NCBI GenBank assembly: GCA_947036815.1 | Contig: CAMQRS010000008.1 | Location: 1-47,747, forward strand | Length of the DNA stretch: 47,747 nt | Direction: 5' to 3' | DNA from: an uncultured Erysipelotrichaceae bacterium | GTDB lineage: Bacteria > Bacillota_I > Bacilli_A > Erysipelotrichales > Erysipelotrichaceae | Shown here: piece after piece, positions 237 through 43,347 of the stretch | Layout: each line of letters begins with the position of its first letter | Position numbering within the stretch: the first letter of the stretch is position 1 | The notes under the pieces: model-generated | Told to the model about the DNA's origin: nothing | The model's input: only the letters and a program-made list of their open reading frames with translations | Databases searched by the model: none | Translations under genes and position numbers: made by a program

Positions 237-3200
237 CTATTTAATTCTTTTCTTTTTATTTGATACTACAAATATAATTACTGCAAATGCCATCAATAGC
301 GCATACTTACCTACATTAGTTGTATCACCTGTGTCTCCACCATTTCCTGTGTCTCCACCATCTCCAGTTTCTCCACCATCTCCGTTATCTGTATCTAACA
401 CTAAATTTTTAAATGCTTTTAATAATTCAGAAGTTGCTTCGTCCACTTGAATTTGTTGAGCACTCATATCTTTCAACATCACTTTTGCATCTTCTAATGC
501 TTTTAAATATAATTTATATGAATTTTCTTCATATTTATTATTATCGTCTGCTTCAACCTTAGCAATAGTACTAGATAATTCACCTCTATTAACTAATCCA
601 TTATCATTTTCAACATTACCAAGTTTAAATTTGGCTTGCTTAATATACGATAAGTCAGTTGTTACCCCACCTGTCCAAGATTCAGAAAATTCTTGATCAA
701 AGTGTCCATATGAATTCATAATAAAAGTACCATCTTCTAATACCACTACTCCAGCATAACCAGTATCACCAGATTTAGCATTTTGCGTAAAGTCTTCTTC
801 CATCAAAATTGTATAATCTCCATCATTTTGATTCATTAAATCTTCATAAGTTCCAACCCAAGTTACCCAATCACCTGCTAGCCAGTCATTATTTTCAAAT
901 ACTCCATTGCCATTAATATCATATTTTATTTCTCTGAATGTTATTACTAATCTTCCACTAATGGGGTCGTATGCAATTTTATGACGTTCTCCTGCTAAAG
1001 AACCTGGTAAATCCATTGGTTCACTCCAAGTTACTCCTTCATCATCTGAATATATAAGTGTTGCATAGTTGTTGTGTGATTGAGATCTTGCAATTCCTAC
1101 GATTCTATTTCCATCAGGAGATCTAAACATCCCTATTTCACACATTTTATATTCCGATTCAATATCTCTATATTCTGTTAAATATTTTTCTGGTTTACTC
1201 CATTGTTCATTTCCATTTTCATCAAATGTTAAATAAGTTTTAAAGTTTTCATAGCTATAGTTATGATATACACCCATCCATTTTTGAATATAGCTTCCAT
1301 TTTCATCTTTTAACTGAACTAAACTTGCCATACCAACAATTACATCGTTAGTATCAGTTGATGATAAATCTGTATACCAATGTGCATATTCAGTCCATGT
1401 TTCTCCATTATCATCAGAATAAGATGAATTCCATCCTGTACTATTACCATCAGAATCAGTTCCCCATCCTGGACATGATGTAATCAACATGATTCTTTCT
1501 GTTCCATCTGCTAACTTTAACACATACATTGTAGGTGTTTCTTGACTTCCAATCCATGACTTAGGTAAGTCTGTGTTTTCAGTCCATGTTTCACCTAAAT
1601 CATCACTATTTTGCATAATGATTGGTCCTTTACCATGTCCCTTTGGATATGCAGCAATCAATCTTCCACTACTTGTTTGAACCATATCTGGTTGTCCTAA
1701 GTATTGACGATCTGTTCCTATTTTTTTCTCTATATCACTTAAATATTTTTCTTCTAATTCATAAACTGGTGTAGTATTTACAATTGGTAATTCTTTTTTT
1801 ACTTTAATTTTCACAGTATCACTATACCCTGATGCAGCATTTGCAACTGTAACAACAACTTCTCCACGTTTATGAGCACTCACTACTCCATATACATCTA
1901 CACTAGCAATTTCTGGATTACTTGATGTATAGGTTATTGTTTTATCCTCTTCGTCACTAACTAAATTTGTTTCAATTTTGTAAGTGTCATCAATATAAAT
2001 CTCTTTTTTTGATTCTGTTAAATTGATACCAGAAACTAAAGTATTTGCTTTTATTTCTGATTTCGTAAGTACTCTATTGAATACTTTCAATTCATCTATA
2101 TATCCAGAGAATCCATTTCCTCCGATAATATCAATAGGCGCTAATGTACGATTACTAGAAGTCCAAGAATTTATACTTCCTGTCAGTTCTCCATTTACAT
2201 ACATCATAAGACCTTTAGACTTGTCTTGTACCCATGTTAAATGATAATAGTTATCTTTTTCAAATGGATATTCTGCTGTTAATACATCTCCTGATCCTTT
2301 ACCTACACGGAAACCAGAAGGACGACTCTCTGACATTTTTAAACTAAATGCAAAATCTCTATTTGTATCCATCATCACAGAAATTTCTTTATTGAAATCT
2401 GTTGTTGATTTCACCCAATAGCTCACACTCCAATCCGCATTATCATCAATACCATGTGTAGTATCAAAAGTCATATTTTGTGATTCATTTTCCATATATA
2501 AAGCATTTCCTGATTTACCTTCTACAAAAGTTGCTCCATTTATAGTTCCTTCACGAGTACCCCAAGAATCTGATCCCGTTTCATCGTCAAAAGAATAATA
2601 CGCAACTTGTGCAGATTCTGGAATCGCTACCGGAGTAACTCGTACTTTTACTGTATCCAATTTCGTATTATCTTGATCTGAAGTCGCTATTACTTCAACT
2701 GTTCCTTGACGTAAACCGCTAACAACTCCGGTTTTAGAAACACTTGCGATATTTTCATTTGAAACACTCCAAATTATTTTTGTATTTATTACATTAGAAG
2801 GAGCAACTGTAGCTGTTAATTGAGTAGCATTACCAATTGGTAGAGAAATATTTTCTTCGTTAATAGTAACTGATTCAATTTTATTTGTTCCTGATTCTAA
2901 TATTTCAATATATCTATCTGTTAATGTATTTAAATCCGATCTAAACATATCCATTTCTGATGATATATTTGCAACCTCTTCATCTGTTAACCATCTATTT
3001 CTTTGTACGTATGCTCCAGTAGCTATTTTTGCATACATATTATCAACATCATTTTGTAATGATGGTATTTCTGCAACCATCATTCTTATCTTATTCACAT
3101 CTCTTACTCCGTTTATCATAGTTTCCATACGGATTGAACTATTATATCCTGGTTTTTTTGCATCTTTTTCCGTTGGATATACGACAAAGCAATCTCCAGC

Positions 3201-5828
3201 CTCAAATGCATTATGCGTTGTATCTCTTAATGGATCTGCTACCCATGCATCCAATGCCCAACGTAAAAATCCATCAGTTTCTTCAGATGCATTAATTACA
3301 CTCCAGTAACTTTCAACTGGTGAACTTAATGAAAAGTTTCCAGGCACATGCTCAGTACAAGAATATAGAGATGTCTTTAGTCCTAAAGCTTCACGATCAG
3401 CAACTAATTGTGTAAATTCAGGAGCATGAGCTGCTGCTGCATTATCACCTACTGATAACACATCTACTCTTCTTGCCATATCTGCTTTTGCGACAAATCC
3501 ATCCATTGCTCCAGTTGTTTTAAATGGAATATCGTGTATGTTTTTAACCGAATCAATTAGATCAAATGCTCTTACATCAAACCCTCTCTCATCAATTCCT
3601 ATATGTATTTTATCAAACCAACCTTTTTCCATAGTATGTTCAATAAAATTTTGTAAAAAGTCTGTCCAAACAGCATTATATCTATCATTTCCTACTGAAT
3701 ATCCTTCATACTTCAGTACGTCATTTTCCCAATATGCAAATGAATTTGTCCAAGGAGCTATACTATACGCAATAATATTTCCGTCTAATCCTTGTTCTAT
3801 AGCAAATGCCACCCATTTATCAAAATCAGTGTAATCATATGTCATAGATCCGTCAGCATTTTTGATCCATTTTATCATAGAAGGAACATGAGTTTCATTT
3901 TTACTATATGTTTGACCAGCCCAAGCTTCTTCAACAATTGTAGTTGTAATTGAAGATCCTCCAACTGCTTTATATAATTCTATTCCTTCACTTAGAATAT
4001 CAAAATGTTCAGGACTAAAAGGCGTTACGTCATAGTACTCTGCAGAGCTATATGGATATTGCCATAACTCTACATCAAAAGAGTTTTGGAATTCTGAAGC
4101 ATTAGGTGCAGTTACATCTTTTACATCCACAGTGTAAGTAAATGTGATTGGTTCAGATATTTCATCAGCATTTACTGTAATTTCAGTTGTGTATGTTCCT
4201 GCTATTGCCTCTGCAGGAATTGCGACTTCAACCCAAATCGGTTGTAGTTCATTAAATCCTATATCAATCTTATTTGCATCTATTAAAACATCTGAAACTT
4301 CACTTCTATTTGTTCCATTATCTGCCGGAACTGGTCTATCTTTACTACCATAACCTAAATAAGAACCGTTATATGCTTTTGCTGATTGAACAAAAGATGT
4401 TTTTACATTTTTACTAGAAATTGTATTTTTGCCGTTTGTTAAATCAGAAGCTGAAACTGTTACATTTTTTAATTTTGATGCCTTGGCAAATACTACAATT
4501 TCAGAAACTGCTTTATCATTTTTCCACGCTGTCAATTCACTAGAAAGCGTACCCATATTATTTACTTCTTGATAACGATCTTGAGTATATTGTGTATCAA
4601 TATCAACAATACTTCCACCAATTCCAGGTGTCACAGGTGTTACTGTTATCATTACCGTTTTCTCAATATTAAATTTAGCCGATGACAATGTTATAGTTGC
4701 CGTCCCATCATTAATTGTTGATATCAACCCTTCTTCATTTACAGTTGCGACATTTTCATCACCACTTGTATAAACTAAATCTGATAAAGTTGCATAATCA
4801 GGATTCACTGTATATGAAATTTGTTGTTGTGCACCTTCTGCAATTGTATAACTTTCTGAGGTTAAAGTTATATCAGTTACTGGATACGGGCTGTGGTATA
4901 CCACAACCTTAGCACTATCGATAGGTTTACTTTCTTTAGCAACTGCTTTAAGTTTATGAGAACCTTCCGCTAATCCCTCAAAAGTTGCGATTAAAGCTGA
5001 AGGTATATTTGAAGCATTATATAAACTATATTCTCCTTCAGATACACCATCAACGAAGTACTCTACGTTACCCATTGGACGATTCTTACCAGCATAAACT
5101 TCAATTTTATTTCCTACAAAATCAACTTCATACCAAATATCTCCTGGATTTTCCTCCGATGGTACATTTGACCATACATGCTCTGGATCTGTTCCAAACG
5201 CATCCCAACCAATAGCTGAATAGGTAAATTTATTACTAGATCCGGTGATTTCATCATGAGGTATTACCGTTCTTTCCACTGTATCAGATTGAGATCCGTG
5301 GACTTTTGCATAACTTATTTGCAACCCTGTTTGAGTTCCATCATTTGGTAAGGATACATTTACTGTATGCTCTCCATAAGTTAACCCTTGTTTACTATAT
5401 AAAACTGTTTCTTCCTTCAGTGTAGAAATAGAAACAGTTTCTGCTACGTCTTCATTTATTTGAAAAGTGTTTAACGTAGAACCAGTACTTCCAATACCTA
5501 CTAATTCAACTCCTGTACCAACAAATGTGAAACTATATGTATGTTTACTTGCTTCTGCATTATCTGCATTCCACGTCCAACGCTGAGAAATTAATTCAGC
5601 ACTTCCACCTGGAAAATTAGCTGCGCTTGTTCCCCATCCAGATGCTCCAGCAGGATCTGTAGCAGCTGAATATGTGAAATAATTTTGTTCTGTTGACGAT
5701 TCCACAGTATCATCTACAATGACATAACCTCCCGTTGCTTTCACATTATTAAAGAAATCACCTGTCATTGCTAAACTAGAACTTAATGCAATGAAACATG
5801 ACAACATTATTTTAAATATTTTTTTCAT
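237..5828 (-). CDS. Giant secreted multimodular glycosidase: GH123/DUF4091 plus LamG, Big2 and BNR propeller modules
   Basis: This 1863-residue protein has a signal peptide (about 1-31). Two beta-sandwich, carbohydrate-binding-like modules (about 35-315) and a Big2 domain (about 318-396) follow. A GH123/DUF4091 region spans about 405-975, with WQYPYSSAEYY and the Asp-Glu pair in GIDERGFD near 742-750, matching the Asp-Glu pair used for substrate-assisted catalysis in GH123 beta-N-acetylgalactosaminidases. Then come Big2 (about 982-1065), LamG (about 1068-1265), Big2 (about 1265-1345), and a beta-propeller with three Asp boxes (SDDLGETW, SDDNGETW, SDDEGVTW, about 1355-1727) of the exo-sialidase superfamily. 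It ends with a FIVAR-like helical module (about 1744-1810), a Gly/Asp/Thr linker, a membrane segment (about 1838-1855) and a KKKRIK tail. The tail looks like a cell-wall sorting signal but has TGD without LPXTG. Expected role: extracellular removal of GalNAc and perhaps sialic acid from host glycans. The gene stands alone between IS remnants. Confidence 0.88.
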   Translation of the reverse strand: MKKIFKIMLSCFIALSSSLAMTGDFFNNVKATGGYVIVDDTVESSTEQNYFTYSAATDPAGASGWGTSAANFPGGSAELISQRWTWNADNAEASKHTYSFTFVGTGVELVGIGSTGSTLNTFQINEDVAETVSISTLKEETVLYSKQGLTYGEHTVNVSLPNDGTQTGLQISYAKVHGSQSDTVERTVIPHDEITGSSNKFTYSAIGWDAFGTDPEHVWSNVPSEENPGDIWYEVDFVGNKIEVYAGKNRPMGNVEYFVDGVSEGEYSLYNASNIPSALIATFEGLAEGSHKLKAVAKESKPIDSAKVVVYHSPYPVTDITLTSESYTIAEGAQQQISYTVNPDYATLSDLVYTSGDENVATVNEEGLISTINDGTATITLSSAKFNIEKTVMITVTPVTPGIGGSIVDIDTQYTQDRYQEVNNMGTLSSELTAWKNDKAVSEIVVFAKASKLKNVTVSASDLTNGKNTISSKNVKTSFVQSAKAYNGSYLGYGSKDRPVPADNGTNRSEVSDVLIDANKIDIGFNELQPIWVEVAIPAEAIAGTYTTEITVNADEISEPITFTYTVDVKDVTAPNASEFQNSFDVELWQYPYSSAEYYDVTPFSPEHFDILSEGIELYKAVGGSSITTTIVEEAWAGQTYSKNETHVPSMIKWIKNADGSMTYDYTDFDKWVAFAIEQGLDGNIIAYSIAPWTNSFAYWENDVLKYEGYSVGNDRYNAVWTDFLQNFIEHTMEKGWFDKIHIGIDERGFDVRAFDLIDSVKNIHDIPFKTTGAMDGFVAKADMARRVDVLSVGDNAAAAHAPEFTQLVADREALGLKTSLYSCTEHVPGNFSLSSPVESYWSVINASEETDGFLRWALDAWVADPLRDTTHNAFEAGDCFVVYPTEKDAKKPGYNSSIRMETMINGVRDVNKIRMMVAEIPSLQNDVDNMYAKIATGAYVQRNRWLTDEEVANISSEMDMFRSDLNTLTDRYIEILESGTNKIESVTINEENISLPIGNATQLTATVAPSNVINTKIIWSVSNENIASVSKTGVVSGLRQGTVEVIATSDQDNTKLDTVKVRVTPVAIPESAQVAYYSFDDETGSDSWGTREGTINGATFVEGKSGNALYMENESQNMTFDTTHGIDDNADWSVSYWVKSTTDFNKEISVMMDTNRDFAFSLKMSESRPSGFRVGKGSGDVLTAEYPFEKDNYYHLTWVQDKSKGLMMYVNGELTGSINSWTSSNRTLAPIDIIGGNGFSGYIDELKVFNRVLTKSEIKANTLVSGINLTESKKEIYIDDTYKIETNLVSDEEDKTITYTSSNPEIASVDVYGVVSAHKRGEVVVTVANAASGYSDTVKIKVKKELPIVNTTPVYELEEKYLSDIEKKIGTDRQYLGQPDMVQTSSGRLIAAYPKGHGKGPIIMQNSDDLGETWTENTDLPKSWIGSQETPTMYVLKLADGTERIMLITSCPGWGTDSDGNSTGWNSSYSDDNGETWTEYAHWYTDLSSTDTNDVIVGMASLVQLKDENGSYIQKWMGVYHNYSYENFKTYLTFDENGNEQWSKPEKYLTEYRDIESEYKMCEIGMFRSPDGNRIVGIARSQSHNNYATLIYSDDEGVTWSEPMDLPGSLAGERHKIAYDPISGRLVITFREIKYDINGNGVFENNDWLAGDWVTWVGTYEDLMNQNDGDYTILMEEDFTQNAKSGDTGYAGVVVLEDGTFIMNSYGHFDQEFSESWTGGVTTDLSYIKQAKFKLGNVENDNGLVNRGELSSTIAKVEADDNNKYEENSYKLYLKALEDAKVMLKDMSAQQIQVDEATSELLKAFKNLVLDTDNGDGGETGDGGDTGNGGDTGDTTNVGKYALLMAFAVIIFVVSNKKKRIK

Positions 5829-6173: not shown

Positions 6174-6873
6174 TTAGGTGGCACCGAGCAAAGTTTTTTC
6201 ATATTTACTGAGTGCCATTTTAAGTTTAGTATGTATTCTTTTACTTAAGTAATATCGTGTTAAGTAATCATAAATCGATATTTTTATTTTTAATCTATGC
6301 TTGTTAGGTATTATTAATTCACATTTTATGATTCTGTGATAAAATTCAATTACTGCATTATCTACTGGTGCTTCAGGTGTACTCATAAAAAGTCGTATAT
6401 GATTGCTTTTTAATACTGTTTGATAATCAAATGAGCACTACTGTGAACCGCGATTTTAATGTATTTTGGTTGGCAGTTTCTTCTTGCATTAGATCAATGG
6501 GTTTATCACGATTGATTTTTTCATGTGTGTATTCACTTCGAAGCATCTTGGATTTTTGTCGTTAAATCGATATATGTACTTAAATATAAGTGTCTACCAC
6601 TACATGTAATATAAGTGATATCTGTTCCCCATATATCACCTCTGATTTGTTGATTAAAATTTTTCTGTAGAAAGTTCGTTTTATAATCGCTTCGATCGGC
6701 ATCTGTTCTCCTTAATTAGCTCTTCTTTTATGATTCCCTTTTGCACACGAAATGTTTATTTGAGCATTAAAAAAATGTATTTACTTACACTTTACAATAA
6801 CTACTTTAATACGATTAACTTCATAGTCAGTTAATAGTTCTCATTACTTAATTATTGATTCATTTTTTGTCAT
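6174..6873 (-). pseudogene. Decayed IS3-type transposase (remains of OrfA and OrfB)
   Basis: The 3' part (6174-6386) encodes STPEAPVDNAVIEFYHRIIK and onward to KYEKTLLGAT, which is the end of the rve/DDE domain where D-N-A-V-I-E carries the last catalytic Glu. Farther upstream (about 6550-6690) another frame gives IRGDIWGTDITYITCSGRHL, the W-x-TDITY motif with the first catalytic Asp. A possible OrfA start (MTKNES) lies at 6871-6873 behind AGGAAAAT. Frames change repeatedly, stops interrupt, and only about 700 bases remain, so it cannot make a transposase. It differs from the element at the left edge. Confidence 0.8.
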
Positions 6874-7015: not shown

Positions 7016-7219
7016 TTACTTAATCTCTATTTCTTTCACTTTTATCAATTCGACCACTGCTTGAGCTCTACCCTTTACTTCTAATTTAAGTAATACATTG
7101 GATATATGGTTACGTACTGTTTTACTAGTGATTCCTAATTCTTGAGCGATTTCGCTCGTACTATAGTTTTGTATCAACAAATCAAATATTTGTTTTTCTC
7201 TTGGAGTTAATATGTTCAT
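7016..7219 (-). CDS. Small stand-alone LuxR/GerE-type HTH protein
   Basis: The 67-residue product is almost only a LuxR_C helix-turn-helix: LTPREKQIFDLL, then STSEIAQELGITSKTVRNHI, then LLKLEVKGRAQAV, the classical four-helix pattern, with no receiver or ligand domain. This is similar in size and layout to GerE of Bacillus. I chose ATG at 7219 because AGAGG then sits five bases upstream; the GTG at 7225 would overlap the ribosome binding site. It follows uvrC by about 33 bases with its own terminator after it, so it is probably the last gene of the DNA repair cluster. Its targets are unknown. Confidence 0.8.
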   Translation of the reverse strand: MNILTPREKQIFDLLIQNYSTSEIAQELGITSKTVRNHISNVLLKLEVKGRAQAVVELIKVKEIEIK

Positions 7220-7252
7220 GTGCACCTCTGTTTAATCCATACTATGTACAAA

Positions 7253-43084: not shown

Positions 43085-43298
43085 AAAAAAACTTTCATCC
43101 AAAGGACGAAAGTTTTACTTACGTGGTTCCACCTTAATTCATAATACACTTACGTATATTATCTCATTCGAGTACTTTTATACTCTAGCAATATAACGGT
43201 CGCTTCCGTTAAAGATTACTTAATTCACCTTTACTGCTCCAAGATGTGTTCACTATTTGCTTTGTATTTCTTTTCACCAACCAGAAACTCTCTACCCC
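43085..43298 (-). promoter_or_regulatory. T-box leader with histidine specifier
   Basis: The minus strand shows the T-box sequence AAGGTGGAACCACG (within 43121-43135). The intrinsic terminator AAAACTTTCGTCC / GGATGAAAGTTTT follows at 43104-43116 and 43088-43100, with three-base loop and T-run. A stem I region begins near 43298 (GGGGTAGAGAG). In the stem I region GTGAACACATC offers the specifier CAC (43246-43248), a His codon. Uncharged tRNA-His would stabilise the antiterminator and switch on the his operon. Confidence 0.93.
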
Positions 43299-43347
43299 AA
43301 ATAAAATAACTACTATTTCTTTTCATTGCATTTATCTTTATAAGTGT

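Follow-up and report, generated by a model that had tools for sequence, protein, structure and literature searches.

A predicted secreted Erysipelotrichaceae protein joining a GH123 module to a sialidase-type propeller is a probable orthologue of the Sda-degrading enzyme SiaBb3

Can a single polypeptide strip both sugars from a glycan terminus in which β-linked GalNAc and sialic acid share one galactose? This question is raised by a gene in the genome of an uncultured Erysipelotrichaceae bacterium (1.68 Mb, 97% completeness), which is located at positions 237..5828 on the minus strand of the window, i.e., the whole stretch of 47,747 nucleotides analysed here, that constitutes the entire contig C8. 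The open reading frame codes for 1863 amino acids, is uninterrupted by any internal stop and occupies exactly the coordinates that had been assigned to it by the sequence-only reading. Its product, a predicted secreted two-enzyme protein, combines a GH123 module and a sialidase-type propeller, and a two-sugar attack on Sda/GM2-type glycans was proposed on these grounds. The idea is right in kind and is not new, since it has already been published through the work on SiaBb3 of Bifidobacterium bifidum. By analogy with that characterised probable orthologue, from which the activities, their order and the substrate are inferred, the protein is very probably a SiaBb3-type bifunctional exo-glycosidase that is secreted and probably resides at the cell surface.

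Full-length homologues with identical domain order are found in other genomes, and therefore the two-module architecture is not an effect of chance. The protein (all its features lie on the minus strand) starts with a signal-peptide-like N-terminus (aa 1–31, MKKIFKIMLSCFIALSSSLA...; 5736..5828), read from the sequence with an approximate boundary. It is followed by two β-type accessory regions without a Pfam match (aa ~35–180 and ~190–310; 4899..5726), the first of which has no clear counterpart in the relative from genome G060 (14% identity in the alignment), then by an Ig-like domain and the GH123 N-terminal and catalytic domains. After the GH123 module come a Big_2 Ig-like linker domain (aa 985–1056; 2661..2876), the best of three Big_2 stretches matched by Pfam, a laminin-G/ConA-like domain with possible carbohydrate binding (PF13385 Laminin_G_3, E 8e-17; aa 1116–1260; 2049..2483), a second Big_2-like stretch, the propeller and a helical tail. 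Beyond the tail there is a Gly/Asp-rich linker, a hydrophobic segment and KKKRIK; the C-terminal TGD-TTN, the hydrophobic stretch and KKKRIK were read from the sequence at 240..332. Within the same positions (window 240–332) GGDTGD is found where the relatives have sortase-like motifs, VKTGD or PITGN. The host genome contains a sortase gene. The anchoring motif of the present protein appears degenerate, and the protein might be retained in the membrane or have a poor anchor.

The claim of a GH123 module with an Asp-Glu pair was borne out both by Pfam and by the alignment to a solved structure. The GH123 N-terminal domain (PF22680, E 2e-27; aa 408–553; 4170..4607) precedes the catalytic domain (PF13320 GH123_cat, E 4e-77, and 5.7e-79 in the genome search; aa 589–917; 3078..4064). 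The search of PDB sequences returned CpNga123 (5fqe, E 2e-91) and BvGH123 (5l7v/5l7r, E 2e-80), two solved β-GalNAcases that can be aligned over about 530 residues of the GH123 part; the catalytic stretch ISMDERSMD of CpNga123 is matched there by IGIDERGFD, which contains Asp746-Glu747 (3588..3593). This pair, assigned to the substrate-assisted mechanism and equivalent to D617/E618 of SiaBb3, is intact, so the lack of a catalytic pocket, named beforehand as an outcome that would speak against the two-sugar idea, does not apply to this module. As judged from its sequence, the module is of the β-N-acetylgalactosaminidase type and is predicted to release GalNAc. The GH123 family also includes enzymes that act on 4-sulfo-GalNAc or release disaccharides, and a predicted sulfatase (L002:5490-6851) is encoded upstream of the orthologue in Clostridium paraputrificum, which might point to a target outside mucin, either a glycolipid or a glycosaminoglycan (e.g., chondroitin GalNAc), the likeness to SiaBb3 being architectural only. 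However, the nearest GH123 structures are β-GalNAcases, the catalytic spacing equals that of SiaBb3, and a sialidase-type domain would have no role on chondroitin; such a target seems hardly credible to us.

The second module is a six-bladed sialidase-type propeller (aa ~1350–1740; 609..1781), supported by Pfam, AlphaFold2 and Foldseek. Three canonical Asp-boxes (S-x-D-x-G-x-T-W) are present in its sequence, i.e., SDDLGETW (aa 1408–1415; 1584..1607), SDDNGETW (aa 1471–1478; 1395..1418) and SDDEGVTW (aa 1594–1601; 1026..1049). Pfam gave only a partial BNR_2 match (aa 1442–1606, E 3e-12), the present protein being the only BNR_2 protein found in a search of the host genome, and sialidases were matched weakly (E 3e-6) in the PDB sequence search with a profile of the propeller family. 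The AlphaFold2 model, built on nine homologues, reached a mean pLDDT of 82 and a pTM of 0.85 (the earlier model, based on three sequences, had a pLDDT of 68). When this model was compared with the PDB in Foldseek, sialidases made up nearly all of the best 50 matches (top E 2e-13), GH33 enzymes being the foremost class (TM about 0.55–0.6). The predicted fold thus agrees with the GH33 sialidases, and the three-Asp-box propeller of the exo-sialidase superfamily, postulated from the sequence together with structure prediction as its check, is found both in the boxes and in the modelled fold.

The functional interpretation is provided by SiaBb3, a protein of 1753 aa with GH123 at 281–757 and a divergent sialidase domain at 1229–1607 that contains three Asp-boxes (PMC12856340). 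Its action on GM2 yields lactosylceramide, and mucin O-glycans are stripped of their Sda epitope (PMC12856340, J Biol Chem, December 2025), Neu5Ac being released first and GalNAc second, and inactivation of the sialidase blocked the GalNAc release (PMC12856340). The D617A/E618A substitution abolished the GalNAcase activity, while Y1574A or E1430A/Y1558A abolished that of the sialidase (PMC12856340). All residues mutated in SiaBb3, i.e., D617/E618, Y1241, E1430, Y1558 and Y1574, have corresponding positions in the present protein, namely D746/E747, Y1376, E1564, Y1691 and Y1707. The D/E-Y-E-Y-Y spacings are 630/188/127/16 here, 624/189/128/16 in SiaBb3 and 631, 188, 128 and 16 in the C. paraputrificum relative, so the catalytic positions of the propeller lie within 1 aa of the SiaBb3 spacing. 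Residue spacing, domain order and the number of Asp-boxes make the protein a probable orthologue of SiaBb3. The supposition that one chain holds both activities and is directed to Sda/GM2 gains support by this analogy, as it is proved for SiaBb3, which has the same domain order and matching residue positions.

If the protein acts as SiaBb3 does, the propeller would remove the α2-3 sialic acid from the Sda/Cad/GM2 terminus GalNAc-β1-4(Neu5Ac-α2-3)Gal, the GH123 module would then remove the exposed β1-4 GalNAc via the substrate-assisted Asp-Glu mechanism, and the Ig-like and laminin-G domains may space or anchor the two modules. Are the two steps coupled at all? SiaBb3 also cleaves sialosides other than Sda, 6'SL faster than 3'SL (PMC12856340), GA2 and Gb4 are substrates of related GH123 enzymes with a single domain, and in the same family many GH123 relatives lack a matching propeller. 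This would fit modules that serve different glycans, the propeller acting in general mucin desialylation and GH123 on asialo-glycolipid or Gb4-type GalNAc, with the fusion ensuring co-secretion only. Such uncoupling we regard as unlikely, given that the steps of SiaBb3 are strictly ordered on one epitope (PMC12856340) and that the two modules have stayed fused in genomes from different lineages; coupled removal of both sugars is the reading we follow.

The distribution of relatives was examined at several levels. In the genome-contig scan, C. paraputrificum was the only match beyond the own genome, with a full-length relative of 1871 aa and 55% identity. In the order to which the window belongs, the protein is intact in G060, G300, G616 and G622, and split or broken in G116, G149 and G620; full-length relatives show 51–62% identity. 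The orthologue of G149 (L010/L028, G149:C1) has its propeller and GH123 parts in separate open reading frames, being either a pseudogene or a sequencing error. A propeller match was obtained in nine of the 316 genomes searched, GH123 without a matching propeller being far commoner; the scanned viral contigs yielded no relatives and the plasmids no match to the propeller. Compared with C. paraputrificum, G300, G616 and G622, identity amounts to 75–78% in the propeller, 61–66% in GH123 and 37–62% in the linkers, while compared with G060 the propeller (61%) and GH123 (60%) are about level. In almost all comparisons the propeller thus shows the highest conservation of any domain, which indicates that it is under selection and is not decaying. 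Intact, conserved proteins in C. paraputrificum and several genomes of the window's order extend the SiaBb3-type 'Sda eater' beyond Bifidobacterium, and so breakdown of the Sda epitope of the colon is probably no bifidobacterial speciality.

Which residues of the propeller would carry out the sialidase chemistry? Nine propellers were compared, two of which (L033 and L034) are stand-alone proteins encoded in TGA=Trp genomes; in this set Glu1564 (1137..1139), Arg1581 (1086..1088), Arg1632 (933..935), Tyr1691 (756..758) and Tyr1707 (708..710) are invariant, as are G[ED]RHK (1613–1617), GHG (1397–1399), D1381 and D1688. On the basis of spacing, Tyr1691, placed in DTGYAG, is proposed as the nucleophile (SiaBb3 Y1558) and Glu1564 as its partner (SiaBb3 E1430). 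Arg1581, 17 residues past this Glu, is a candidate for the second Arg at the carboxylate site, and Arg1632 is putatively assigned as the third. Tyr1707 (SiaBb3 Y1574), placed in SYGH, lies 16 residues past Tyr1691. Only one alignment to a canonical GH33 sequence proved usable, and it is weak; in it, the FRIP Arg position is occupied by Gly1378 and the acid/base Asp loop of GH33 blade 1 reads GHGKG, with no Asp. In the propeller the Glu-Tyr pair is present and the Arg1/Asp pair of GH33 looks absent in that weak alignment. The same apparent layout of residues occurs in the propeller of SiaBb3, which is active.

It could be argued from Gly1378 and the apparently missing acid/base Asp, and from the existence of BNR propellers without detected activity, such as Amuc_0623 (PMC10067855), that the propeller only binds sialic acid, like a lectin, after loss of catalysis and that GH123 works alone. 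Yet all nine sequences keep the Glu-Tyr pair, two Arg and other polar residues unchanged, the propeller is mostly better conserved than the other domains, and SiaBb3 with the same spacing turns over 4MU-Neu5Ac at 180 per s (PMC12856340), which makes a purely binding role very unlikely. As to how a catalytic propeller might hold its substrate, GH181 lacks one Arg of the triad and has Gln367 in its place, 17 residues past the nucleophile position (PMC10067855). Since Tyr1707 is found at +16, and SiaBb3 cannot do without the counterpart Y1574, Tyr1707 is proposed as a stand-in for the missing arginine, and D1688, H1398 or D1381 are candidates for the acid/base. Membership in GH181 itself was rejected, because Tyr1691 is invariant where GH181 has Gln (with His); GH181 was also reported to be inactive on Sda (PMC10067855).

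The propeller may deserve a sialidase family of its own. It can be put forward, tentatively, that it represents the Bacillota branch of a distinct family, neither GH33 nor GH181, in which the carboxylate is held by two Arg and Tyr1707, a residue other than the blade-1 Asp acts as acid/base, stand-alone forms exist in TGA=Trp genomes, and the site is adapted to GalNAc-branched Gal. If this is true, the target galactose bears a GalNAc branch, a setting in which most sialidases perform poorly. The conserved but apparently non-canonical site makes the sialidase chemistry a question open to point mutation. The stand-alone propellers (L033, G467:C3; L034, G391:C13) are about 430–450 aa long and come from small TGA=Trp (mycoplasma-code) genomes of the same class as the window; they have the same invariant signature, with no GH123 in the open reading frame, and may belong to the same sialidase family.

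What would the host do with the released sugars? A GalNAc-type PTS operon is present on contig C60 (L075, G000:C60:1-6760) and consists of agaS and the genes of EIIA, EIIB, EIIC and EIID; EIIA (AgaF) scored over its cut-off, and AgaS, the AgaW-like EIIC and the AgaE-like EIID below strict NCBIfam cut-offs. The AraC-type regulator of this operon shares 44% identity with the one adjoining the GH123-propeller gene in G616, and a similar AraC-type regulator gene adjoins that gene in G622; the aga operon and the GH123-sialidase locus may share regulation. The sialic-acid lyase NanA was not found in the host genome (97% complete). The only two DHDPS-family genes found were considered for this role and rejected, as both exceed the dapA cut-off and fall far short of those for NanA; one stands between dapF-like and dapB-like genes and the other after dipicolinate-synthase-subunit-like genes (neighbours read by eye). 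The genome has two copies of nanE, which is no proof of sialic-acid use. Gene content suggests that GalNAc is the sugar taken up and that sialic acid, once released, would remain for others. Given the GalNAc-type PTS operon with agaS and the lack of a detected lyase, sialic acid would seem to be a lid to remove rather than a meal, and it is predicted that it is discarded and becomes available to neighbours.

Only 236 bases separate the gene from the contig end, and hence the local context is silent on one flank; the remaining neighbours (uvrC, mutS2 and rnhC) are housekeeping genes. Between the gene and uvrC there are decayed IS3-like transposase fragments in three frames (window 6174–6702, minus strand), which were read by eye (DIWGTDITYI..., PVDNAVIEFYHRIIKCEL...), the longest piece having no Pfam match. 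Transposase-like genes are also located near the gene in G300, and the GC3 of the gene is 0.158 as compared with 0.18–0.27 in its neighbours. Together with the close similarity across lineages, these features suggest horizontal movement of the gene. The scan for promoters and terminators gave no excess over shuffles. Upstream of the gene, a 69-aa open reading frame (window 7016–7225, minus strand) encodes a LuxR/GerE-type DNA-binding domain (E 2e-18). Elsewhere in the window, a T-box leader (43099–43335, minus strand; Rfam RF00230, 130 bits) precedes a gene with a histidyl-tRNA-synthetase domain and then histidinol dehydrogenase, and probably controls histidine biosynthesis.

How does the protein compare with the known systems? 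With CpNga123 (5fqe) and BvGH123 (5l7v) it shares the GH123 N-terminal and catalytic domains and the Asp-Glu pair, whereas the sialidase propeller and the accessory domains are extra. With the GH33 sialidases of P. gingivalis (8gn6) and M. viridifaciens (1eur) and with NanI (2bf6) it shares the six-bladed propeller, as modelled, the Asp-boxes, the Glu-Tyr pair and two candidate Arg of the triad; however, identity is about 14–16%, and the motifs GHGxG, G[ED]RHK, D-x-G-Y and YG are invariant features of its own. GH181 (Amuc_1547 of Akkermansia) is likewise a propeller of the Asp-box type in which the Arg triad of GH33 is altered, two Arg and the Glu being kept, but it is inverting and has Gln/His for the nucleophilic Tyr that is retained here. 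In Allo_01388 of Allobaculum mucolyticum, a GH123 and GH33 protein of 1765 aa tabulated in 2021 (PMC8409761), both CAZy domains are likewise joined in one secreted protein, annotated as exo-β-GalNAcase and exo-α-sialidase, although it is known from annotation only and the likeness is at the domain level. With SiaBb3 it has in common the succession of signal peptide, GH123, linkers, sialidase propeller with three Asp-boxes and membrane/cell-wall tail, the equal spacing of the catalytic and tested residues and a similar length (1863 aa vs. 1753 aa); the present protein differs in its phylum, in about 130 additional aa ahead of the GH123 catalytic pair and in its apparently degenerate anchoring motif.
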